Part shown: positions 47,819 to 60,294 of the stretch, piece after piece
Numbering within the stretch: the first letter of the stretch is position 1
How the letters are laid out: each line of letters begins with the position of its first letter
Assembly (NCBI GenBank): GCA_026390735.1
Contig: JAPLFJ010000051.1
Coordinates: 1-64,000, forward strand
Source of the DNA: Ignavibacteriota bacterium
Lineage (GTDB): Bacteria; Bacteroidota; Ignavibacteria; Tepidaquicellales; Tepidaquicellaceae
Reading direction: 5' to 3'
DNA length: 64,000 nt
The notes under the pieces: generated by a model
The model's database searches: none
What the model was told of the DNA's origin: nothing
The model's input: the letters and a program-made list of their open reading frames with translations, nothing else
Program-made: the position numbers and the translations under genes

Positions 47819-48514
47819 TTAATCCTCAAAATGAGGAGGAAATTTGATTTCAATATCAGAGTCTTCTAAGAGCATAGTGCTGAGGGGGAACGTACAGGAA
47901 GAAGATATAACATTTTCAATAATGGTGGATTCGCCGTTATCGTTTTCCTCTATTTCGGTAAAGAAGTTTATGAAGAATGCGAAGGTGCGATGATATTTGT
48001 ACGAATCGAATTCTTTGTTGAGTTCGGCTGATATTGGAATACTGAAAGTTCTCTTTTTGTTTTTGGAGTATAACTTTGGTTCAGAAAGAGCATTGCTGAT
48101 TACGAACTTTGGTTTACCCTGGACGACGGGATTGGTCATAACGTGAATGATAACGAGACGGCAGTACTCTTTCGGGTTTACCAGTTTCTTTTTAACACCG
48201 TTTACGAATGATACACAACCGTCAAAGTTAACTGAGTATTTGTTTTCATCATCGATGACTTTATCAACTGTAACCCTGAAATACTTTTCAGTGATTTCAT
48301 ATTTACTGATTTCAACATCATAATCAGAATATGGAACGAGCTGTGGTTTAAATTCGAAGATGTTGTCTTTGAAGTTTTCTGAGTTAGCATAATTGAATGC
48401 TTTCTTTGGGTCATCGTACTTGTAGAGGTCGGGAAACATTGACCAGAAGTCTTTTAGAATTTCGATGCTGAGTACTGATTTTGTTAGTGCTGATTTAAAG
48501 TGTTTTGTTTTCAT
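47819..48514 (-). CDS. Protein of unknown function, member of a local DUF6266-like paralogue set (231 aa)
   Basis: No signal peptide or known motif is visible. The layout FKSALTKSVLSIEILKDFWS, then FEFKPQLVPYSDYDVEISKY, CRLVIIHVMTNPVVQGKP and HRTFAFFINFFTEIEENDNG parallels the post-N-terminal parts of the genes at 48780-49505 and 50033-50719, but it lacks their G-x-x-GD-x-x-FR N-terminal segment. It is therefore a plausible N-terminally shortened relative. Its ATG lies in a duplicated 53-bp sequence. The kinship is weak and based on pattern, not alignment scores. Confidence 0.6.
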   Translation of the reverse strand: MKTKHFKSALTKSVLSIEILKDFWSMFPDLYKYDDPKKAFNYANSENFKDNIFEFKPQLVPYSDYDVEISKYEITEKYFRVTVDKVIDDENKYSVNFDGCVSFVNGVKKKLVNPKEYCRLVIIHVMTNPVVQGKPKFVISNALSEPKLYSKNKKRTFSIPISAELNKEFDSYKYHRTFAFFINFFTEIEENDNGESTIIENVISSSCTFPLSTMLLEDSDIEIKFPPHFED

Positions 48515-48779: not shown

Positions 48780-49505
48780 TCATGTGTTTAGGAGGCTGAT
48801 TGTTTGAGAATTCTGAACGAATGTTTTTTCGCTGTTGAGAGCGAGGAACGAGACGAAGACAGAATGATAATTGTAACGGGAGAATGCTGCCGAGTCCTGC
48901 TGGTTCATGGATTCGGCGGGTGACTCCTGATTTTCTGAGAAGGACAGATTGAATGAGAGGTTCTGACCTTCGACTATTTCTACGGGTGCGGAGAGATAGT
49001 TTATGAAATTGAACTTTGAATCGGACTGATCAATGGGTTCTTTGCAGAAGATGATTGCTGCCATCTGAAGATACTTTGGTGAATTGACACCAGTGAGATG
49101 AGAATCTTCGGGGATGAAGTTTATTCGGAACGATTCTTTGTTGATGGATAAGGATTCCGGTTTGATGAGGAAATCAATTTTTGGGAATATCTGAACGTAG
49201 TCAGAGATATAGTCGTAGAAGACAGCCTTATAATTATTTTTGAAAATAAGGTTGTACGCTGACATTTTTCTGTTTGTGTGCTGAGACCAGAGGTCATAAG
49301 CGGGTTGAAAGTTTTTGATGCACTTAGAGAGCATTGCAGTGAGTTTAAAGCGAAGTCTGCGATGCACAGAGGCAATGTCAGTGCCCGGAGTGAATGACTG
49401 CGGGCGGATGCCGACGACTGTTTTGTCGGGGTAGTTACGAAAGACAACGTCGCCAATGCGACCAGAGATTCTTCCGAGCGGTGATGGAACGATTAGTAGA
49501 GCCAT
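48780..49505 (-). CDS. DUF6266-like protein of unknown function (241 aa)
   Basis: The N-terminus SPLGRISGRIGDVVFRNYPD, KTVVGIRPQSFTPGTD closely parallels that of the gene at 50033-50719 (KPTGAVGDILFRLKDG, GTRPVSYMPGKD), and both continue with an R-R-x-RF motif, an aromatic SxYNxIFK segment and a beta-rich C-terminal half. This arrangement recalls the DUF6266 family of Bacteroidota. No signal peptide, membrane segment or catalytic motif is seen. AAAGGA precedes the ATG at usable spacing. The function is unknown. Confidence 0.65.
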   Translation of the reverse strand: MALLIVPSPLGRISGRIGDVVFRNYPDKTVVGIRPQSFTPGTDIASVHRRLRFKLTAMLSKCIKNFQPAYDLWSQHTNRKMSAYNLIFKNNYKAVFYDYISDYVQIFPKIDFLIKPESLSINKESFRINFIPEDSHLTGVNSPKYLQMAAIIFCKEPIDQSDSKFNFINYLSAPVEIVEGQNLSFNLSFSENQESPAESMNQQDSAAFSRYNYHSVFVSFLALNSEKTFVQNSQTISLLNT

Positions 49506-50032: not shown

Positions 50033-50719
50033 TTAGTTGGTTAGATTTACAGAATAATGAACGGCTTTACCATCGTCTTTAAGAGTTACGAGAGCGAAGT
50101 AGCTCTTGTGAGTGGTAAAGAGTGAATATAGTTCAGAGTACTGGTCCGAAAGAGTGATACTGAAAGATAAAGTACCAGACAGAGACATCGGAAGGACTGC
50201 TGATTTTAACGGAATTAACATCAAAGACGGAAGTTCGGCTTCTGTAGCATCTTTGCATTTGATAACAACAGCAAGCTGGATGCCAGTTTCAACGAGCGGA
50301 TCTATGCCTGCGTTATTACCGATTGCGCTGATAGCGACAGTGACAGAAGTTTCATTGATTGCAACGTTTGTGGTTGTGATATCGAACCCAAAGAGTAACG
50401 GCACAACCTTAGCGGAATCTGAAATATCTGTCGGAGTAACGTACGGATAACTTGCTTTGAAGATACCATTGTACGGGGAGATATTGTTCGGTGTAGCGTT
50501 ATCCCATACGGACTTCAAAGAAGGAATTGCATTTACAGCTTTAGAGAACTTCGCAGTATTGCCGAAGCGATGTCTGCGGTCAACTGATTTTTGATCTTTG
50601 CCCGGCATGTAAGAGACCGGACGTGTTCCTATAATTGTTCTTCCGTCTTTGAGGCGGAAGAGAATATCACCGACAGCTCCTGTCGGCTTTCCAAGTACTG
50701 ATTTTTTTAATATACCCAT
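50033..50719 (-). CDS. DUF6266-like protein of unknown function (228 aa)
   Basis: The N-terminus MGILKKSVLGKPTGAVGDIL, FRLKDGRTIIGTRPVSYMPG, KDQKSVDRRHRF matches the paralogue at 48780-49505 in layout. The C-terminal half is two beta-sandwich-like stretches (FDITTTNVAINETSVTVAIS; MSLSGTLSFSITLSDQY). No signal peptide is present. It is separated from the downstream paralogue by repeat-filled DNA, so the pair probably arose by an old duplication. It could be a structural component; the function is unknown. Confidence 0.65.
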   Translation of the reverse strand: MGILKKSVLGKPTGAVGDILFRLKDGRTIIGTRPVSYMPGKDQKSVDRRHRFGNTAKFSKAVNAIPSLKSVWDNATPNNISPYNGIFKASYPYVTPTDISDSAKVVPLLFGFDITTTNVAINETSVTVAISAIGNNAGIDPLVETGIQLAVVIKCKDATEAELPSLMLIPLKSAVLPMSLSGTLSFSITLSDQYSELYSLFTTHKSYFALVTLKDDGKAVHYSVNLTN

Positions 50720-50902: not shown

Positions 50903-51012
50903 TCGAGGAATGAACGAGGAATGAACCTATCTGGAGCGAAGTTAGAGCGCAAGGTGAACGAGAAACATACGAGAAATGAACGAGAAGCAAACGAGAACAA
51001 GCGAGAAAACGA
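50903..51012. repeat. Irregular short-period array of AACGAGAA units
   Basis: About ten near-copies of (G/A)AACGAGAA occur at irregular 8-17 bp spacing (GAACGAGGAATGAAC, GTGAACGAGAAACATACGAG, AAATGAACGAGAAGCAAACG, AGAACAAGCGAGAAAACG). The rest of the 50720-51318 gap holds an inverted pair GCTATTT/AAATAGC (about 51211-51241) and no clear gene. Confidence 0.6.
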
Positions 51013-51145
51013 TTCAGTTTTCAAGTTTTTGTTGAATTTCTCGGTCTTGCTGGTCAATATTTTAGTTTTGCTTTTCAATTTCGTTTTGCCTTATATCGTT
51101 AAACTGCTCATTTTTCAGAAAAGAGACGTTTTCAAAAAAATTTAG
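50921..51145 (+). CDS. Possible small membrane protein (74 aa), uncertain
   Basis: The N-terminal 30 residues are a charged, repetitive stretch (KVNEKHTRNEREANENKREN) encoded by the AACGAGAA array. They are followed by about 33 hydrophobic residues (VFKFLLNFSVLLVNILVLLF, NFVLPYIVKLLIF) that could cross the membrane once or twice. GAGGA lies close before the ATG. It may be a real small protein or an accidental frame over a repeat; no homology is recognised. Confidence 0.25.
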   Translation: MNLSGAKLERKVNEKHTRNEREANENKRENDSVFKFLLNFSVLLVNILVLLFNFVLPYIVKLLIFQKRDVFKKI

Positions 51146-51318
51146 GAACAGCACGTTGGATTTCAAGAAAAGGAGCAGTATATAGATATAGGAAAGAAAA
51201 TAGGTTATAAGATGCTATTTCAACAACGGCAGACGAAAAATAGCTTTTTAGAAAACTAAAAATTGAGTATGGAAACAGTTACAAGTTAAAAAACAGGAAA
51301 ATAAGATAGGGTAACCAT

Positions 51319-51624
51319 ATGGTAAAGGAAATAAAAATAGAGGATTTTGAAAAAGAGAGGGTCATCACCTTTCAACGAATAACAAAATCCGTGGAGAAGG
51401 CTCGAAACACTGAATTGAAAGAGTTGCAAAATTCATCCAGAATAAATTCTTTAATAGAATCCCTTATAGAAATTGGAATTACAAAAAGAATGGGAAAGAT
51501 GATAATCTGTTTCATTTATGCCAAAAGTCGAAGTCTCGGAAAGCCCCTTGATGAGTTTAGATTAATAATAAACAGCAATTGTAATTTTCAATATTTTATA
51601 AGGAGGAAAAATTTTGGATTCTGA
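51319..51624 (+). CDS. Small protein of unknown function upstream of the sigma-like gene (101 aa)
   Basis: The protein is charged and helical in its first 60 residues (KEIKIEDFEKERVITFQRIT, KSVEKARNTELKELQNSSRI) and then FICFIYAKSRSLGK-like. The last residues (FIRRKNFGF) read through the Shine-Dalgarno sequence of the next gene, with which it overlaps by 11 bp. It therefore belongs to the same transcript as the sigma-like protein and may regulate it. The family is not recognised. Confidence 0.6.
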   Translation: MVKEIKIEDFEKERVITFQRITKSVEKARNTELKELQNSSRINSLIESLIEIGITKRMGKMIICFIYAKSRSLGKPLDEFRLIINSNCNFQYFIRRKNFGF

Positions 51625-52345
51625 AAGAACTGAAATAATCAGTAAGAAAATAGAAGAGTTTGTACAAGAAAGACCAGATGATTTTCTTGAACTGATAGCG
51701 CAACTTGACAGCAAAGCAAGATGGAAAATGAAAAAATACTTTGATAAAGATGAGCATTGCGGAACAGAATTGTTCAAAAAGGCGACAGAAAAAATGGAAA
51801 ATGGAGAGCGGGAATGGGATTATGACAAAGTAAAGATAGAGGCTATGATTCATCAAACAGTAAGAAGTCTAATTTCGAACGAATTAGTCAAAATAACAAC
51901 GATTGATGCAACAATAGTTTCTTATGACGATTTAGCGGGTGAAGAGGGAAAAGAAGAACCCGGAAAAGAAAAAACAAATATAAGAAGAACTGAAAACACA
52001 TATACAAACACCGAAATAAGTGATGACAGAATAATAGAGATGGTAAAAGATAAACTGCCAAAAATTGACGGAGATATAGATTTGGTTTCAATTATGGTAA
52101 TGGATGAAATAATGGGAAACAACGGAACAACATACGAAGAGATAGCTGGTAGTTTGAAAATTGGTGAAAAGGAAGTTAAAAATGCTTTTGAGAGGATTAG
52201 AAGAGCGAGAAATAAAGTATGGGCAAAATTGGGAGATACAGATAAAGAATATTTAGAGAATTTGAAAATAGACTATAAGCTGAAAGATGTTGTGAAGAAG
52301 ATTAAGAAATCTGAAGAGAAAGAAAGAAAAAAAGAAACAGAGTAA
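51614..52345 (+). CDS. Sigma-factor-like protein (divergent sigma-70 family)
   Basis: This 243-residue protein starts at TTG, correctly spaced from AAGGAGG. The segment WDYDKVKIEAMIHQTVRSLI, SNELVK resembles a region 2-type helix bundle, and TTYEEIAGSLKIGEKEVKNA, FERIRRARNKVWAKLG is a convincing region 4-type helix-turn-helix. An acidic-basic linker (EEGKEEPGKEKTN) separates them, and the last 35 residues are Lys-rich. It could direct RNA polymerase to promoters of this accessory region, or be a DNA-binding relative without sigma activity. It lies 155 bp upstream of the first ImmA/IrrE module. Confidence 0.6.
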   Translation: MDSERTEIISKKIEEFVQERPDDFLELIAQLDSKARWKMKKYFDKDEHCGTELFKKATEKMENGEREWDYDKVKIEAMIHQTVRSLISNELVKITTIDATIVSYDDLAGEEGKEEPGKEKTNIRRTENTYTNTEISDDRIIEMVKDKLPKIDGDIDLVSIMVMDEIMGNNGTTYEEIAGSLKIGEKEVKNAFERIRRARNKVWAKLGDTDKEYLENLKIDYKLKDVVKKIKKSEEKERKKETE

Positions 52346-52500
52346 TAAGATTTAATAGGATAAAACCTCATTTATAAAGAATAAAGTAATAGGTAATTGT
52401 TTAAAGAGTATGGGAACAATTATTATTGGAAACAACAGACACCAAAATTATTACTAATTTACCCCGGATGGCAGCCGGAGAAGAGAAATAGGACAACACA

Positions 52501-52887
52501 ATGGCAGAAAGAAAATCGAATAAGTTGATTGAGTTTTTAATGAGTACAGAAGGAGAGACGAATGAAGAAGTGAGAGAGTATTTAATGGAGGTTGGGATTG
52601 ACCCAGAGGAAGCAGTAAAGAGCGCATTAAAAGCGATAAAAAAGAGAAGAGCAGAAAGGAAGAAAGCAGAAGGAAGAAGTTTGGTTGAGAGATTCAATGA
52701 AGCTATTCAACACACGAAGGAAGGGTTAACAAAAGAACCGACTGAAGAGAATTCAAAGATTGAAGGAGCTTTTGCTTTCAAAGGAATGAAGAAGACAACT
52801 GACGAGAATATAAAGATGCTTGAAGAAGATAACAAGAAATTAGAAATTTTAAAGAAGGTTAGAGATGATAACAGAGGAAAGTCTTAA
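52501..52887 (+). CDS. Small helical partner of an ImmA/IrrE peptidase, unknown family (128 aa)
   Basis: The protein is almost entirely helical and charged: SNKLIEFLMSTEGETNEEVR, EYLMEVGIDPEEAVKSALKA, then KKRRAERKKAEGRSLVERFN and a C-terminal coiled-coil-like stretch (ENIKMLEEDNKKLEILKKVR). It overlaps the ImmA/IrrE gene by 23 bp. That places it where an XRE repressor or antitoxin usually sits in such pairs, but no HTH is recognisable. It may be the substrate or inhibitor of the peptidase. Confidence 0.6.
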   Translation: MAERKSNKLIEFLMSTEGETNEEVREYLMEVGIDPEEAVKSALKAIKKRRAERKKAEGRSLVERFNEAIQHTKEGLTKEPTEENSKIEGAFAFKGMKKTTDENIKMLEEDNKKLEILKKVRDDNRGKS

Positions 52888-53644
52888 AGCAAAGGCAAGA
52901 GAGCTGCTGGATGTATATTGTGTAGATAACGTTAGTGAGTTTGAGATTGAAGAGATAGCAAATGCAGAAGGACTGATAATACAGGAAGAGAAGATGAGTA
53001 ATCATCATGGAAGGATAAATCACAAAGGAGATTATGGGATAATTACACTTAACAATAAAATATCGAGTGTAAATTTCAGAAGAATAGTAATAGCACATGA
53101 AATGGGACATTATTATTCGATGAGAAGGTACAAAAGATGCAGCACGGCAGACTTGCACAGTTACAGGTCAGACCAAAACGATGAATACATATCAAACGTA
53201 TTTGCGAATGAGTTTTTAATGCCTGAGGAATGGTTTTTGAAATTCACGAAGAAGACAAAACCGAACATTCAAATTTTAAAAGACATAGCTAACAATTTTC
53301 AAGTGACAATAAGTGCGGCATGCTATAGATATTCAAGTCTCGGAGATTATCCTGTTGCTATAATAATGAGTAAGGGTGGAAAAGTGATATGGAATACAAT
53401 AAGCAAAGCTTTTCCGTATCAATTTGTAAAAATCGGCAGCAAAGTAAATTCATATTCTAATGCATACAATTATTTTCAAGGGAAACCGATTGAGATTGGC
53501 GAGCACGAAGTGATGGCAGAAAGCTGGTTTTCGGAGGATTTTAATTTCAGAAGAGGTGTATTTTTTACGGAAGAGAATTTTGTGATGAGTAATTTAGGAG
53601 CGGTGTTGACAATAATTAAGGAGAATAGAAGGATATTTAAGTAA
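52865..53644 (+). CDS. ImmA/IrrE-family metallo-endopeptidase (first copy)
   Basis: This 259-residue protein has the zinc motif HEMGH at 78-82 (IVIAHEMGHYYSM), followed by FANEFLMPEEWF with the likely third ligand near 116. The C-terminal 100 residues form an IrrE-like regulatory half (KGGKVIWNTISKAFPYQFVK; GEHEVMAESWFSEDF). ImmA/IrrE peptidases cleave XRE-type repressors or antitoxins in response to damage or signals. The small overlapping upstream gene is the most likely partner. Confidence 0.9.
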   Translation: MITEESLKAKARELLDVYCVDNVSEFEIEEIANAEGLIIQEEKMSNHHGRINHKGDYGIITLNNKISSVNFRRIVIAHEMGHYYSMRRYKRCSTADLHSYRSDQNDEYISNVFANEFLMPEEWFLKFTKKTKPNIQILKDIANNFQVTISAACYRYSSLGDYPVAIIMSKGGKVIWNTISKAFPYQFVKIGSKVNSYSNAYNYFQGKPIEIGEHEVMAESWFSEDFNFRRGVFFTEENFVMSNLGAVLTIIKENRRIFK

Positions 53645-53796: not shown

Positions 53797-54141
53797 ATGG
53801 AACAAAGTATAACAATTGGGAAAAATTTAGCCTTTTTAAGAGAATTAAATAATATGACACAGGAAAAGGTTGCTGAATATTTAGGAATTAAAAGAGAAAC
53901 TATAAGTTATTATGAAAACGGCAGCAGAAATACACCATTAGATATATTGAACAAATTATCGGATTTATATCAGGTACAACTGATAGATATATTAGAGATG
54001 AAAGAAGAAGACAGGAAGGTAAAAACTGCTATGGCGTTCAGGGCAGAAGGATTAAGTGCAGAAGGATATAAGGCAATTGGAGAATTCGGAAAGATAGTAA
54101 AGAATTATTTAAAGATGAAAAGTATAGAGGAAAGAAAATGA
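53797..54141 (+). CDS. XRE-family HTH repressor / antitoxin-like protein
   Basis: This 114-residue protein has a canonical HTH_3 domain at about 9-64 (NLAFLRELNNMTQEKVAEYL, GIKRETISYYENGSRNTPLD). The C-terminal half (KVKTAMAFRAEGLSAEGYKA, IGEFGKIVKNYLK) is helical and may be the cleavage or toxin-binding segment. It overlaps the next ImmA/IrrE gene by ATGA and very likely binds the 11-bp inverted repeat just upstream. Confidence 0.92.
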   Translation: MEQSITIGKNLAFLRELNNMTQEKVAEYLGIKRETISYYENGSRNTPLDILNKLSDLYQVQLIDILEMKEEDRKVKTAMAFRAEGLSAEGYKAIGEFGKIVKNYLKMKSIEERK

Positions 54142-54839
54142 GTCACGAATTTGAAATGAAAATATTTGCAAAGGAATTCAGGGTTGAGAATGGTTTTGGA
54201 AAGACTGAGCCAATCCGGCTGAAAAGTCTGCTAATGAAATTAAACGTAATAACATTTTTCAGAGATATTGACGAAAACATTTCAGGCGTATCTTTGAAAG
54301 TAAATGACAACAGATTTATATTAATAAATTCATTGAAACCATTAGGGAGACAGCATTTCACTATTTGTCATGAATTGTATCATTTGTTTTTTGAAAAAGA
54401 ATTTGAGCGAAATGTATGCTATTCAGAAACACCAGGGAAAAGAAGTAATACAGAGATAAGAGCGGATTTATTCGCATCATATCTACTATTACCGGAAGAT
54501 GGTATTTCTGAATTGATTCCAAAAGAAGAAAGAGTACATAACAAAATTACATTGATGACATTAATAAAGGCAGAGCAATATTACTCATGTTCGAGAGGGG
54601 CGCTTTTAACTGCACTAAAGAGAATGAAATTAATAAACTCAACTTTTTATGAAAAATTTAAAAAGGATGTAATAGCGGATGCAGGCCGGCTAGGATATGA
54701 AACAACTCTATACGAAAAAGGAAACAAAGGAATTATAATTGGAGATTATGGAGAGAAAGCAAGACGACTGTATGAATCAGGAAATATTTCAGAGCAGAAT
54801 TATATTACAATGATGCTGGATGCAGGGATAGAGGTATAA
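54138..54839 (+). CDS. ImmA/IrrE-family metallo-endopeptidase (second copy)
   Basis: This 233-residue protein has zinc motif HELYH at 78-82 (HFTICHELYHLFF) and EIRADLFASYLLLPEDGI, typical of the family, followed by a helical segment (LIKAEQYYSCSRGALLTALK). It differs clearly from the first copy in sequence and C-terminal length. It is coupled to the XRE gene by a 4-bp overlap and precedes the PIN gene by 11 bp, so it may cleave the XRE protein or work with the PIN nuclease. Confidence 0.92.
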   Translation: MSHEFEMKIFAKEFRVENGFGKTEPIRLKSLLMKLNVITFFRDIDENISGVSLKVNDNRFILINSLKPLGRQHFTICHELYHLFFEKEFERNVCYSETPGKRSNTEIRADLFASYLLLPEDGISELIPKEERVHNKITLMTLIKAEQYYSCSRGALLTALKRMKLINSTFYEKFKKDVIADAGRLGYETTLYEKGNKGIIIGDYGEKARRLYESGNISEQNYITMMLDAGIEV

Positions 54840-54850
54840 AGAGGAAAACA

Positions 54851-55384
54851 ATGAGTAAAGATGAGGATAAAACTAAAATATTATTGGATGCTGATGTTAT
54901 AATAAACTTTATTAATGGGAATAAACTTTCTTTATTAGCTAAGATATTCCCTAATAGATTTTGCATTATTGACAGGGTTAAAAAAGAATTGAGCAAAAGA
55001 AACAGCGCGAAGATTTTAGTTGATAATTTTACACAAACAGAAAATATCGAAGAAATTTCGTTTCCTGACACAGATTATGAAATACTAAGAGAATATTCGA
55101 TTTTAGTGTCAACAGATTATGGGCTGGGAGACGGAGAGAGTGCATGTTTAGCGTATGCAAAATTCAGAGCTACCTACATATCAAGCAGTAATTTAGCAGA
55201 TGTGAGTAAATATTGCAAGGAGCACAACATCAAGAACATACCAACGATGGAATTGCTAAGAGAAGCGATGAGAAAGAGAATAATGACAGAACACGAGGCA
55301 GATGTATTCATACAAAACTGCTTGAGCAAAGGTGACAGATTACCAGCAAGAAATTGGAAAGATTACGAGAAGATATCAAAATAG
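54851..55384 (+). CDS. PIN-domain nuclease-like protein, probable toxin
   Basis: This 177-residue protein begins with the PIN metal-site strand ILLDADVIINFI (Asp13, Asp15) and continues with IIDRVKKELSKRN, STDYGLGDGESACLAYAK and TYISSSNLADVSKYC, which supply the remaining acidic positions. PIN toxins (VapC-like) cut RNA such as tRNA or rRNA. As the third gene after XRE and ImmA/IrrE it may form a three-component toxin-antitoxin or damage-response unit. SD AAAGAGGAAA precedes the ATG. Confidence 0.82.
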   Translation: MSKDEDKTKILLDADVIINFINGNKLSLLAKIFPNRFCIIDRVKKELSKRNSAKILVDNFTQTENIEEISFPDTDYEILREYSILVSTDYGLGDGESACLAYAKFRATYISSSNLADVSKYCKEHNIKNIPTMELLREAMRKRIMTEHEADVFIQNCLSKGDRLPARNWKDYEKISK

Positions 55385-55577: not shown

Positions 55578-56342
55578 CTATTTTACAACAATTATATCCT
55601 TTGATTTTATAAATCCATGTTTAATTAGAATATCTTCACGGGCTTCTTTAAAATAATACACTATAGACATTGGTAAATAAAATTTTTTCTGATTTAATTT
55701 AAAAATAGCCGCATCAAATGATGCTTCAAATATTATATAACTAATTTTATCATTACTTTTTTTCCAAATTGTTTTACCATTTAATACATCTGTTGTTAAT
55801 ATTTGACCAATCCATTTTTTATCATTTGAGAAACAATGAATACTTGTAAATATTTGATAATAATATAAGAAATTAATTAATTCACCTCTTTTACCATCTA
55901 AAAAACTAAAATAACCATCATAAACAAACATATTAGATCCAAATAAATCATTTATTCTGCAGGAATCACAATCAAGCCTCACTAATGCACTATCTATTAT
56001 AAGTTCTCTATTTTCGGATTCATATCTTTTTTGGTACACAAAATAAATGGTTGGAGAAATATCGCGGTATTCGAATGTTGTATCCGGTGGGTGCACATAT
56101 TTCCAATTTATTGTATTTGAATCAAGTTGGATTATTAAATACCCAGAAAAACCACTTTTAACATCAATTAATTCAATATTATTAAAATCAATTTCATAGT
56201 TATATCTAAAGTTATTTGTAAGTCTTAATCCTTGGCTTAAAGAAAAGGTAATATTTTGAGTATATGCATTTTCAAATAACATATAAAATAATGTCAAGGA
56301 TACAAATAAAACTATAGAGAATTTATAAATCTGTTTTTCCAT
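55578..56342 (-). CDS. Exported protein of unknown function, candidate immunity protein
   Basis: This 254-residue protein has an N-terminal hydrophobic segment (FSIVLFVSLTLFYMLFENAY) that is a signal peptide or anchor. The rest is beta-rich with DCDSC near the middle; no family is recognised. It begins 9 bp after the RHS-metzincin gene, the usual position of an immunity gene, and its exported location would match a toxin acting outside the cytoplasm. The immunity role is inferred from position only. Confidence 0.6.
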   Translation of the reverse strand: MEKQIYKFSIVLFVSLTLFYMLFENAYTQNITFSLSQGLRLTNNFRYNYEIDFNNIELIDVKSGFSGYLIIQLDSNTINWKYVHPPDTTFEYRDISPTIYFVYQKRYESENRELIIDSALVRLDCDSCRINDLFGSNMFVYDGYFSFLDGKRGELINFLYYYQIFTSIHCFSNDKKWIGQILTTDVLNGKTIWKKSNDKISYIIFEASFDAAIFKLNQKKFYLPMSIVYYFKEAREDILIKHGFIKSKDIIVVK

Positions 56343-56351
56343 ATTAATTGA

Positions 56352-59003
56352 TTAATTATGAAATTTGTTAATATTGCTAAAAAGACCTCTTCTGTTAAGC
56401 TCAAAAACACTTTTCCAATCTTCAATACTAACTTTTGCTCTATAATACTTATCCCCATTTGGAGACAACCTAGGACCCGCAATAGAATTAGCTGGTATTA
56501 GACTTGTATTTGATTTTGGGTTATCAACATAAACTTTTCTTGCATCACTATGTTTTAAACCAAATAAATGCGCTAGTTCATGCGCACCTGAATCATCAAA
56601 ATATTTTAAATCACTTGAGATATATAATATATCATGAATATCACCTTTCTCAACATTTGCAGTTGCGACACCAATCCCAGGTTCATCTAATTCACCTAAC
56701 ACTTGACCTGTAGGATTTAAAACAAAATTATCATATTGACCTTTAAAATTTGATTGCATTTGATTCATATTCATATTTTTCGCTTCCAAAAAATTAACGC
56801 TTACTTGAGTATTCTCTGCAATGCTCCAAGATTCCATACTATATTTGATTTCACTTAAGGCATCAATTTGATCATTGTTTAAGCCATATGTTTTATCATT
56901 ACTCTCTCTTACATAATAAAAAGTATAATTGACAATTGTTAAATTCCCTTGTGTTGTAATTCTGGGTAATAGACCACCTTCGTCTGCCAATTTCATTGGA
57001 TTCAGCAAACCATACTGATAAGGTGAATAGGAAAAATATTTTTCAAGTAGCGGCTCAATTCCACCCCATCGTGCAATTCTTGCATCATAATATCTTGCCC
57101 CGAAATAATCATAACCGGTTTCTGCGTCTCTTTGTTTGCCAGTGAATTTGTAATTTGTGGATGTGGAATCCCAGGTTCTGGCGATGTGACCCCAAGGGTC
57201 ATAATCCTGTGCCTGAACTAATACATTGTTCTGGTTTATTACTGCACGGATTGAGCCGAGATGGTCTTTGAGGTAGAAATATTTCATACCTGTGGGTTTT
57301 ATTCTGCCTTCGTTATTGCTACCCCACACGTTCCAATAGTCGAGAGTGTAGCTCTGATAGACTGCGATTTCTTTACCCGACGCGTCCCTTGAATAGTATT
57401 CGTCTTTTGTGATTGTCCAGCCAGAAGGAAGGTCTTCATTTTCTTCAGGTAATGGAGGAGGATTTGAATCATTACTTCTGTAAATAGTTTTCCTTGTTCT
57501 GTTTCCTGCCTCATCGTACTTATATCTTGTAATGTCTGTTACAGGCGGGTCTTGTGTTAAATCCTGTCTTGTGAATTCGGTTATCAGGTTTCTGTGGTCA
57601 TATTTAATGCCGGTGTTGTTGTTTATGTAATCGTTTGTTTGATTGCCGTTGTAGTCGTAGGTATATTGGTCGGCTGAGCCTGTTATTTTCTTTAGTCTGT
57701 TTGTGCCAGAGTAATAGTCGTAAGAAAAATTATCGCTGTTGTAGCTGCGAGTGAGTGATGTGAAGTTGCCATCGGAGTCGTAAGAATAATCGCCTGTAAG
57801 GTCGAAGTATTTAGAGTTGTATTTTAATATCTGTTTAAGCCGGTTGGATTTATCATAGGTAAAACCAGACCTTATTTCTTTTGTGTTTGAAAAGTTACTT
57901 TTATAGGTTCCAGAAATACTCTGGCTGTTTACATTACCATTAGCAAGATAATCGAGAGAGTAGCTGAAGAGACTATAGTTATTAGTGCAACTTGTAATCC
58001 AGTTGCGGTTATTAAACGCATAGGATGCAGTAACATTAGTGTTGTTGAGAAGCAGACTGTCTGTCTGAGAATTCTCATTATACTTGTATTGAGCAAAGAC
58101 ATAGTTATAGTCAGGAGGCTGACCGCTTTCCTCTGTTGAGACGGAATGCATTCTGCCTGCGAAGTCGTAGTTGTAAATGCATCGTTTGTAATCTGTATCG
58201 GATTCAGACTGGTATTCGAGTTTAGTTAACTGATTCTGAGAGTTATATTCATATTTTGTTATTTTCCAGCCCAGCCCTGCGATGTAGTTCCACATTTTTA
58301 TTACTCTACTGCGAGCATCGTAACGGTAATACTTATAACTCCACTCATCTGTTCCGAGAGTGCGGTATGCAGCGGCACAGAGAGTGCCTTTTGTGTTGTT
58401 TGTGTTAAACGGGGACGAGGTATAATAATCAACGGGAACGTGGCTGCCAGTGAATAATGTACCGGCATTTGCCGGATAGTTTGTGAGCGTATCGTAGACA
58501 TTGATAACGAGAAAATTGTTCGGAGTACTGGAATAGGAATCAAAGTTGTATGTATTATCAGGGTTGAGATTAGACCATAAAACAAGTTCAGATTCATTAT
58601 AGGCATCGCAGAGATAGAGAATGCGGTTTAAGCCGTCGTATCCGCGGTAAGAAAGATACCTAGCAGGCGGTCTTTCTGTCGGTTTATTTGCCTGATTATT
58701 ATCCTGAGAAAAACGGAGGTTATCGTTTTTATCGTATTTATATTTTACTTCGCCAGCGTCGGGGGTAGTGCGTGAAGACTGCCGACCGAGACCGTCGTAG
58801 GTGTAGTATATATGTTTTTCGTTCGGTGTTTTGACTTCGATGACACGGTAGAGGGCGTCGTATTTGTAGTCGGTACAGAGCGGGAGAAGATCACCCACCC
58901 CGTCCGCCTTCGGCGTCCACCCCTCCCGAGAGTGGAATCTACAATTCCAATATTTATTAAAGCCATTTATCATAATGCAGAATGTATAAATAAGTTCACC
59001 CAC
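56352..59003 (-). CDS. RHS/YD-repeat polymorphic toxin with C-terminal metzincin-like protease, 5' end disrupted
   Basis: From about residue 45 this 883-residue frame has YD repeats (DYKYDALYRVIEVKTPNEKH, YTYDGLGRQSSRTTPDAG) and ends its RHS core with YKFTGKQRDAETGYDYFGAR, YYDARIARWGG...YSPYQYGLLNPMK. The following 206 residues are a variable tip carrying HELAHLFGLKH at 808-818, the HExxHxxGxxH zinc signature of metzincins. The first 45 residues (NCRFHSREGWTPKADG) come from a family E repeat, not from RHS. The gene thus lost its own 5' part; the 271-residue gene upstream is the likely missing start. It may be silent or translated separately. Confidence 0.8.
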   Translation of the reverse strand: MGELIYTFCIMINGFNKYWNCRFHSREGWTPKADGVGDLLPLCTDYKYDALYRVIEVKTPNEKHIYYTYDGLGRQSSRTTPDAGEVKYKYDKNDNLRFSQDNNQANKPTERPPARYLSYRGYDGLNRILYLCDAYNESELVLWSNLNPDNTYNFDSYSSTPNNFLVINVYDTLTNYPANAGTLFTGSHVPVDYYTSSPFNTNNTKGTLCAAAYRTLGTDEWSYKYYRYDARSRVIKMWNYIAGLGWKITKYEYNSQNQLTKLEYQSESDTDYKRCIYNYDFAGRMHSVSTEESGQPPDYNYVFAQYKYNENSQTDSLLLNNTNVTASYAFNNRNWITSCTNNYSLFSYSLDYLANGNVNSQSISGTYKSNFSNTKEIRSGFTYDKSNRLKQILKYNSKYFDLTGDYSYDSDGNFTSLTRSYNSDNFSYDYYSGTNRLKKITGSADQYTYDYNGNQTNDYINNNTGIKYDHRNLITEFTRQDLTQDPPVTDITRYKYDEAGNRTRKTIYRSNDSNPPPLPEENEDLPSGWTITKDEYYSRDASGKEIAVYQSYTLDYWNVWGSNNEGRIKPTGMKYFYLKDHLGSIRAVINQNNVLVQAQDYDPWGHIARTWDSTSTNYKFTGKQRDAETGYDYFGARYYDARIARWGGIEPLLEKYFSYSPYQYGLLNPMKLADEGGLLPRITTQGNLTIVNYTFYYVRESNDKTYGLNNDQIDALSEIKYSMESWSIAENTQVSVNFLEAKNMNMNQMQSNFKGQYDNFVLNPTGQVLGELDEPGIGVATANVEKGDIHDILYISSDLKYFDDSGAHELAHLFGLKHSDARKVYVDNPKSNTSLIPANSIAGPRLSPNGDKYYRAKVSIEDWKSVFELNRRGLFSNINKFHN

Positions 59004-59103: not shown

Positions 59104-59919
59104 TTATGATAAGTCAATATTATACGTGAAATCAGCGTATTGATTTTTGTATTCTTCATAAACGTACGTGAGACCATCGCCTTTCATAAAAGAAACACGA
59201 CGGTTCCTGTAAGCGGGTTGAGTAGAATATTCAATAAATTCAACTCTTGCTCTGGAATAATCATCCAAGCCATCGACATAATAATCGCCGATATAACAAC
59301 CGTCGTAATTGATTCCAAAAGAGCAAGAACTCTCAATTCTCTTCAGATACATAGCAGAGCCGTCGCCTCGCATCAGAATAATTACATCACGCATTCCAGA
59401 TTCAAGAGACCGAAGGTTATCAGTAAGGTGGTAGCCCATAGCGAGCATACGGACACCAGAATTTACGATAGAGTCACCGCTATTTGGAACAGAGAAGAAA
59501 TTTGTTTCGAAGTTCAGCATTTGAACAGCCATACCGTTAAGGCTGAGAATCCATCCCGGTGCAGAAACATTGTGACGAGGGAGAGAATTACCCGTAAGGA
59601 GGCTATTAGCGGCGGGTATTACCTGATAATTAACCGAACCATTGTAGTTCAGGGAAAGGTCTAAATGAATATCGCCGGGACCTTTAAGGCTGTACATTGG
59701 AAAGGTGTAGCAGAGATTTCCATTGAAATTATTTATCATTTCACCTTCATCGGGCGAGACTGAGCCCGACTTGAGGAAGCCGCGTTCATTGAACATGCCG
59801 CTGACATCAAGGGGGATGTTCGGCTGAGAGAGCAAAGACGGGGCAAAGAAAATAATAAAACATAAAGCAAAATTCACAAGAGAGAAATATCTCTTTAGTT
59901 CGGTAATTATTGTATCCAT
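59104..59919 (-). CDS. N-terminal part of an RHS-type secreted protein, separated from its repeats
   Basis: This 271-residue protein has a signal peptide (FSLVNFALCFIIFFAPSLLS) and then the opening typical of RHS/SpvB-like proteins: SVSPDEGEMINNFNGNLCYT, FPMYSLKGPGDIHLDLSLNY, NGSV and APGWILSLNGMAVQML. It stops at ADFTYNIDLS, where YD repeats would be expected to continue. Only 100 bp of repeat-rich DNA separates it from the RHS repeat gene, so the two were probably one gene before a deletion and insertion. Confidence 0.75.
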   Translation of the reverse strand: MDTIITELKRYFSLVNFALCFIIFFAPSLLSQPNIPLDVSGMFNERGFLKSGSVSPDEGEMINNFNGNLCYTFPMYSLKGPGDIHLDLSLNYNGSVNYQVIPAANSLLTGNSLPRHNVSAPGWILSLNGMAVQMLNFETNFFSVPNSGDSIVNSGVRMLAMGYHLTDNLRSLESGMRDVIILMRGDGSAMYLKRIESSCSFGINYDGCYIGDYYVDGLDDYSRARVEFIEYSTQPAYRNRRVSFMKGDGLTYVYEEYKNQYADFTYNIDLS

Positions 59920-59961: not shown

Positions 59962-60294
59962 TTAGTTTGTTAAATCTATAATTTCAGCAGTTGGAGCGTT
60001 TGCTTTAACAGAGGCAATACCAACTTCACGGGATTGCATGGTTTGGTACATCTGACTTGTACCGATAACTTTATTGTTTTGAGCAGTCAGAGTAAAATAA
60101 TACCTGCCATCAGAAGCCGACAAGCGGTTGTATCTATTATCGTAAGGTGTATTAACTTTTACAGAATCAATGCCATCGTAACAAGCTGCTTTTGTGGTAT
60201 AGCCTTCGCTAACGAGGATTACCTGGTTATTATCTGCTTCAAGAACGAACTGAAATTCGTTGTTAGATCTTTTAGAGATTAAGAATCTTCCCAT
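59962..60294 (-). CDS. YegP/DUF1508-family protein
   Basis: This 110-residue protein contains two tandem YegP repeats: FLISKRSNNEFQFVLEADNN, QVILVSEGYTTKAACYDGID, SVK and then YYFTLTAQNNKVIGTSQMYQ, TMQSREVGIASVKANAP. The fold is a small cytoplasmic beta domain of unknown function found in many bacteria. It precedes the RHS locus by 42 bp and may share its transcript. Confidence 0.88.
   Translation of the reverse strand: MGRFLISKRSNNEFQFVLEADNNQVILVSEGYTTKAACYDGIDSVKVNTPYDNRYNRLSASDGRYYFTLTAQNNKVIGTSQMYQTMQSREVGIASVKANAPTAEIIDLTN

Follow-up and report, generated by a model that had tools for sequence, protein, structure and literature searches.

The DNA analysed here, a 64,000-nucleotide stretch from an Ignavibacteriota bacterium that we call the window, carries four co-directional ORFs on the plus strand at 51319–53644, overlapping at both ends of the set. 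Our check of the ORFs in the window bore out these positions and overlaps as the original prediction had given them. The first ORF (101 aa, 51319–51624) overlaps by 11 nt the ORF of a divergent sigma-70 (ECF-like) protein of 243 aa (51614–52345), whose TTG start codon lies 8 nt after a good Shine-Dalgarno sequence (AAGGAGG, 51600–51606). A gap of 155 nt separates the 243-aa ORF from that of a small helical protein of 128 aa (52501–52887), which in turn overlaps by 23 nt the ORF of an ImmA/IrrE (M78) peptidase of 259 aa (52865–53644). The conserved unit is the three genes at 51614–53644, encoding the sigma-like protein, the helical protein and the peptidase, which we refer to as the trio. The 101-aa ORF had been predicted to belong to the set; it has no credible homologue among 29 relatives, and we therefore rejected it as a fourth member and place it probably outside the module.

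Divergent to the trio, on the minus strand, lies the gene of a 228-aa protein (50033–50719), the predicted target, which belongs to a family that we call T1. In the region between the two operons we found a 30-nt inverted pair consisting of a putative promoter arm facing T1 (TTTCTGAAAAATGAGCAGTTTAACGATATA, 51092–51121, minus strand) and one facing the sigma operon (TTTCAAGAAAAGGAGCAGTATATAGATATA, 51161–51190, plus strand), identical at 23 of 30 positions (shuffle p = 0.01). An array of 11-bp direct repeats (50904–51008, no strand assigned) is placed between the putative promoter and T1 and hence in the predicted T1 leader. The trio and T1 genes of the window are all intact and keep the invariant catalytic residues. 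No Rfam RNA family was found at 47–56 kb of the window. The most informative feature of the locus is this divergently transcribed target operon; the original prediction included neither the T1 gene nor the set of genes at 53797–55384.

That set lies directly downstream of the trio and encodes an XRE regulator (114 aa), a second M78 peptidase (233 aa) and a PIN-like protein (177 aa). A closely similar XRE/M78/PIN-like set comes after a different trio in a genome of the same genus (L038); the trio peptidases of the two loci share only about 40% identity. Further along, a Rhs-repeat type protein on the minus strand is split over two ORFs (56352–59003 and 59104–59919). Its C-terminal end carries a zincin-like motif (HELAHLFGLKH) and is followed by a 254-aa ORF (55578–56342). 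Beyond it, also on the minus strand, lies the gene of a 110-aa protein (59962–60294) that is YegP/DUF1508-like, as judged by reading the sequence only; yegP homologues are reported to adjoin CapK/CapS controllers as well (PMC13373217).

The three proteins of the module

The 259-aa protein matches the M78 domain above cut-off (Pfam PF06114, E 1.8e-13), confirming the predicted ImmA/IrrE assignment, and judged from its sequence it is certainly an M78 peptidase. The residues of its zinc site, the HExxH motif (HEMGH in the window) with a downstream Glu (H78, E79, H82 and E107), are invariant in 17 trio peptidases. With a profile of these 17 proteins, the best solved structure was CapP (7t5t, E 7e-29). 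The alignment spans positions 60–253 of the 254 in the profile and so includes the conserved C-terminal domain, while IrrE matches the peptidase part only. In a phylogenetic tree, the peptidases partnered with HTH proteins, both viral and CapP-like, cluster as a single supported group within the trio peptidases (96/95), and the copy at 54138–54839 of the window is long-branched and falls outside it. An XRE antitoxin adjoins an M78 gene in that separate set (53797–54839), not in 52501–53644.

The overlapping partner of the trio peptidase had been described as lacking an HTH, which held: the 128-aa protein matches no HTH family, nor any other family. The helical proteins of the trios are highly diverse, at 15–27% identity, and those that could be aligned have in common a C-terminal motif around A-[AF]-R-[KN]...L-S-x-E-D (AFAFKGMKKTTDENIKMLEEDNKK in the window). 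We ran a 26-column profile of this motif over 5269 ORFs in 84 loci. Among the top 40 ORFs, 38 lie directly upstream of an M78 peptidase gene, and most of these encode HTH repressors; above 5 bits the profile picked up 47 of the 72 genes that immediately precede an M78 peptidase gene, versus 4 of 5111 other ORFs. The 128-aa protein of the window itself scores 21 bits, but it is part of the training set. One of the HTH partners matches CapH in both halves, its motif-bearing tail matching the 44-residue C-terminal domain of CapH (7t5w/7t5v). With a shared CapH-like tail and no HTH, the helical protein thus resembles a CapH-type substrate without the DNA-binding half. The substrate role that had been proposed for the 128-aa protein gained support from this motif. 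The cleavage site of PprI in DdrO lies in the C-terminal domain (PMC10904395). From gene order and conservation, we propose the 128-aa protein as a candidate anti-sigma factor.

The sigma-like call for the 243-aa protein stood in part. The window protein scores below cut-off against both TIGR02937 (E 0.005, residues 26–197) and Sigma70_r4_2 (E 0.014), but of 17 homologues that occupy this gene position, 11 match TIGR02937 (sigma70-ECF), the best at 2e-8. A profile of the family searched against the PDB, in which two-domain sigma profiles were matched, gave sigma-H as the best match (3mzy, 1.6e-6) and also found SigW, and two of the homologues weakly match NF041236 (CAS_III-E_sigma). AlphaFold modelled the window protein with low confidence (mean pLDDT 63.6). 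The great majority of the structural matches of this model are to sigma factors, the best of them covering region 4 (residues 132–212, 3mzy, Z 8.8), although for a helical domain a Z of about 8 does not settle the matter by itself. The fold of region 4 is matched in the model, and region 2 is not matched separately.

Conservation of the trio and its divergent neighbours

Conserved co-occurrence, named in the original prediction as a check, was found when we looked for it in other genomes; neither this search nor the structural matches of the low-confidence 243-aa model refuted the prediction. We counted about 46 distinct sigma/helical/peptidase sets with the same gene order in Ignavibacteria, other Bacteroidota and proteobacterial plasmids, this number being that of distinct helical proteins flanked by a sigma-sized gene and an M78 gene in a scripted table, in which a wrong frame was taken for the helical gene at one locus (L064) and the sigma gene was assigned by position, beyond the reach of profiles, at five (L063, L076, L081, L086 and L087). 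The first survey covered 148 related genomes, queried with the 128-aa protein and the peptidase. Further peptidase loci were retrieved from 395 genomes of the phylum, and the trio was present in 18 of the 20 loci retrieved. Plasmid searches added more trios in Bacteroidota and in alpha-, beta- and gammaproteobacteria; because plasmid searches that used only the 128-aa or the 243-aa protein of the window as query gave no matches, these relatives were reached through the peptidase. Among the named hosts of the trio are Melioribacter roseus, Ignavibacteriae MAGs, Candidatus Chrysopegis kryptomonas, Pontibacter, Spirosoma, Chryseobacterium, Bradyrhizobium, Cereibacter sphaeroides 2.4.1 and Polaromonas. 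No sigma match turned up in 80 viral M78 loci, which indicates that the sigma partner goes with the trio peptidase group and led us to reject a viral origin. One locus from the viral M78 search (L149) has a helical-type partner without a recognizable sigma gene.

At nearly every trio locus with enough flanking sequence, another operon begins just upstream of the sigma gene in the opposite direction. Its type varies while its position and orientation stay constant. CBASS genes (SMODS/DncV nucleotidyltransferase, SAVED, patatin and NUDIX, by NCBI annotation or Pfam) are divergent to the trio in about 10 loci, including a copy in the laboratory strain C. sphaeroides 2.4.1 (L059). Multiubiquitin (Bub-like) or UBL genes with ThiF/E2/DUF6527 occupy this position in about 11 loci, a count that includes four called by reading the sequence (L073, L085, L086 and L088), and Pycsar in 1. 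At 1 further locus (L075, G295:C2) the divergent genes are a Tn7-like TnsA/TnsB pair, so a Tn7-like element may be under trio-type control there. The T1 family of the window is divergent to the trio in about 15 distinct loci from several families, and the remaining neighbours are uncharacterized genes. HTH + M78 pairs of the CapH/CapP type occupy the same divergent position to CBASS on Agrobacterium and Indioceanicola plasmids.

T1 has no sequence match in Pfam, PADLOC or the PDB. In the predicted structure, a fold search with residues 109–228 returned only a generic FN3/Ig-like sandwich. The family is multicopy, with at least nine copies on several contigs of the window's genome, and most of these have no trio nearby, so we rejected T1 as an exclusive partner of the trio. 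Two more genes of the family lie downstream of T1 on the minus strand (48780–49505 and 47819–48514). The one at 47819–48514 is a diverged copy; the T1 profile finds its counterpart in L170 at 2e-9. Arrays of 11-bp direct repeats precede many T1 copies whether or not a trio is present (the window, L189, L190, L194, L195, L039, L046, L069 and L186); the repeat unit varies from locus to locus and the 11-bp period is kept. A GC-rich sequence, CGCTCACCYCC, lies about 100–180 nt upstream of some T1 start codons (exact in L189, L182 and L194, near in several others); as it occurs in few copies, we rejected it as a single T1 promoter. Six loci (L185, L186, L187, L191, L193 and L196) are incomplete modules, in which T1 lies divergent to a sigma gene, the helical gene is present in some and no peptidase was detected. 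The switch is thus not always complete.

The regions between the two operons carry similar sites on both strands. On proteobacterial plasmids, TGTCC-N-GCATA faces the sigma operon in 5 of 10 intergenic regions (shuffle mean 0.018), and in 2 of those 5 it is also mirrored toward the immune operon. A motif-free test asked whether one and the same bipartite word stands on both strands, divergently oriented; of 28 short intergenic regions, 11 reached p ≤ 0.05 (Fisher 4.6e-7). Among 20 T1 loci, 6 had a significant 30-nt inverted pair (Fisher 1.4e-5); the bipartite test was negative when confined to the 180 nt upstream of T1 and sigma genes, the inverted pair lying farther out. The spacing of the sites is -35/-10-like, and a GCATA/GAGYATA element recurs in them, oriented toward each gene. 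Their words vary between loci and agree within each locus, which is what a single factor reading both sides would be expected to produce. We regard these bipartite sites as putatively promoter-like, although a site present on both strands could instead be a palindromic operator.

A proposed switch and its alternatives

The trio is probably a cytosolic, protease-gated sigma/anti-sigma switch in which an anti-sigma factor with a CapH-like tail takes the place of the CapH repressor. This reading draws on the conserved order and divergence of the genes, the kinship with CapP, the substrate-like tail, the sigma-like sequence with its region-4 fold and the like sites on both strands; from these we infer binding between the sigma-like and helical proteins, cleavage, a trigger and activation of the target. 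In a resting cell, the helical protein would hold the sigma-like protein inactive. A signal, maybe ssDNA from damage or from invading DNA by analogy with CapP and PprI/IrrE, would activate the peptidase, which would then cut the helical protein within its CapH-like C-terminal tail or close to it. Once free, the sigma factor would direct RNA polymerase to the two like promoters that lie between the operons and so increase expression of its own operon and of the divergent target operon, which is an immune system in many relatives and T1 here.

The same genes could act by derepression, as CapH/CapP does. The sigma-fold protein would then be a DNA-binding repressor or co-regulator with the helical protein as its partner, cleavage would derepress the divergent operon and the like sites would be operators. 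The symmetry of the sites would fit this, as would the weakness of the window protein in region 2 and the clustering of its structural matches on region 4. We nevertheless judge it unlikely, since homologues match full-length ECF models (TIGR02937 over residues 26–197 in the window protein), two-domain sigma profiles are matched in the PDB, and the spacing and the recurrent element facing each gene resemble those of promoters. Less probable still is that the trio is a toxin–antitoxin or addiction module, carried along in defence and plasmid islands without controlling its neighbour. The trio is frequent on plasmids, and ImmA-type genes occur in XRE/COG2856 toxin–antitoxin sets, one of which adjoins it (53797–55384); against this, the neighbour is consistently divergent across a shared intergenic region with matched sites, and partners change while position and orientation stay.

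A further alternative concerns the window alone, where the module may be a relict, or may control T1 for a non-immune role at the surface or in a mobile element, so that the immune link of the relatives would not carry over. The many T1 copies without a trio nearby, the FN3-like domain and the lack of a PADLOC match point this way, but T1 is divergent to the trio in several families, and the window genes are intact with invariant catalytic residues. We consider this alternative rather unlikely, though less so than derepression.

Relation to known systems and significance

CapP (7t5t) is an ssDNA-activated protease that cuts the repressor CapH (7t5u/7t5v/7t5w). CapH and CapP resemble the trio in having an M78 peptidase with the same C-terminal domain and a substrate with the tail motif, and in lying divergent to CBASS and Bub-type operons (PMC13373217). 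They differ in that their substrate is an HTH repressor, whereas here an HTH-less helical protein accompanies a sigma-like protein, implying activation rather than derepression. In the PprI/IrrE–DdrO pair of Deinococcus, an M78 peptidase likewise cuts its partner in the C-terminal region upon an ssDNA signal (PMC10904395), but that partner is an HTH repressor and no sigma factor is involved. CapK + CapS also control an immune operon and are fold-related to anti-sigma networks, but consist of a kinase and a STAS-wHTH repressor, with neither protease nor sigma factor (PMC13373217). The known controllers of adjacent immune operons, CapW, CapH + CapP and CapK + CapS, all derepress (PMC13373217). 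A CapH-like tail without a DNA-binding domain suggests that the protease-recognized tail is a portable module.

In the type III-E Craspase–Csx30–RpoE system, a protease acts on the inhibitor of an ECF-like sigma factor; that protease differs from ours in being caspase-like and RNA-guided. The CalpL/CalpT/CalpS system of type III CRISPR comprises a soluble protease, an anti-sigma factor and an ECF sigma factor (PMC11417357). It shares with the trio an immune context and the absence of a membrane protein, but its protease is a Lon-SAVED protein activated by cA4, whereas the trio has an M78 metallopeptidase and no CRISPR locus. A soluble protease that frees a sigma factor is thus known from Calp and Craspase, and the principle is not new; the novelty that the original prediction had expected of a membrane-free, proteolysis-triggered sigma switch is pre-empted by CalpL/CalpT/CalpS (PMC11417357). 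We saw no description of this peptidase, with its substrate and immune context, in the open-licence literature that we searched, and found there no paper on a sigma factor and an ImmA/IrrE peptidase controlling immune operons; a prior mention elsewhere is possible.

If the proposed switch is correct, proteolytic release of a dedicated sigma factor would offer an activating alternative to the known controllers, with promoter specificity and possible action in trans. The widest reading, which we put forward tentatively and which falls a little short of probable, is that the trios make up a fourth class of controllers of immune operons that is widespread in Bacteroidota and Pseudomonadota. A CapP-type protease that senses damage would destroy a CapH-tailed anti-sigma factor; the dedicated sigma factor set free in this way would read matched divergent promoters and turn on CBASS, Bub, Pycsar or other cargo, and T1, with its leader of 11-bp repeats, would be an unrecognized immune gene. 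The trio may also serve as a finder, since any gene or operon divergent to it becomes a candidate immune system. Candidates that it points to in this way are the T1 family, a 393-aa beta-protein relative in L061 and uncharacterized genes in L078 and L080.
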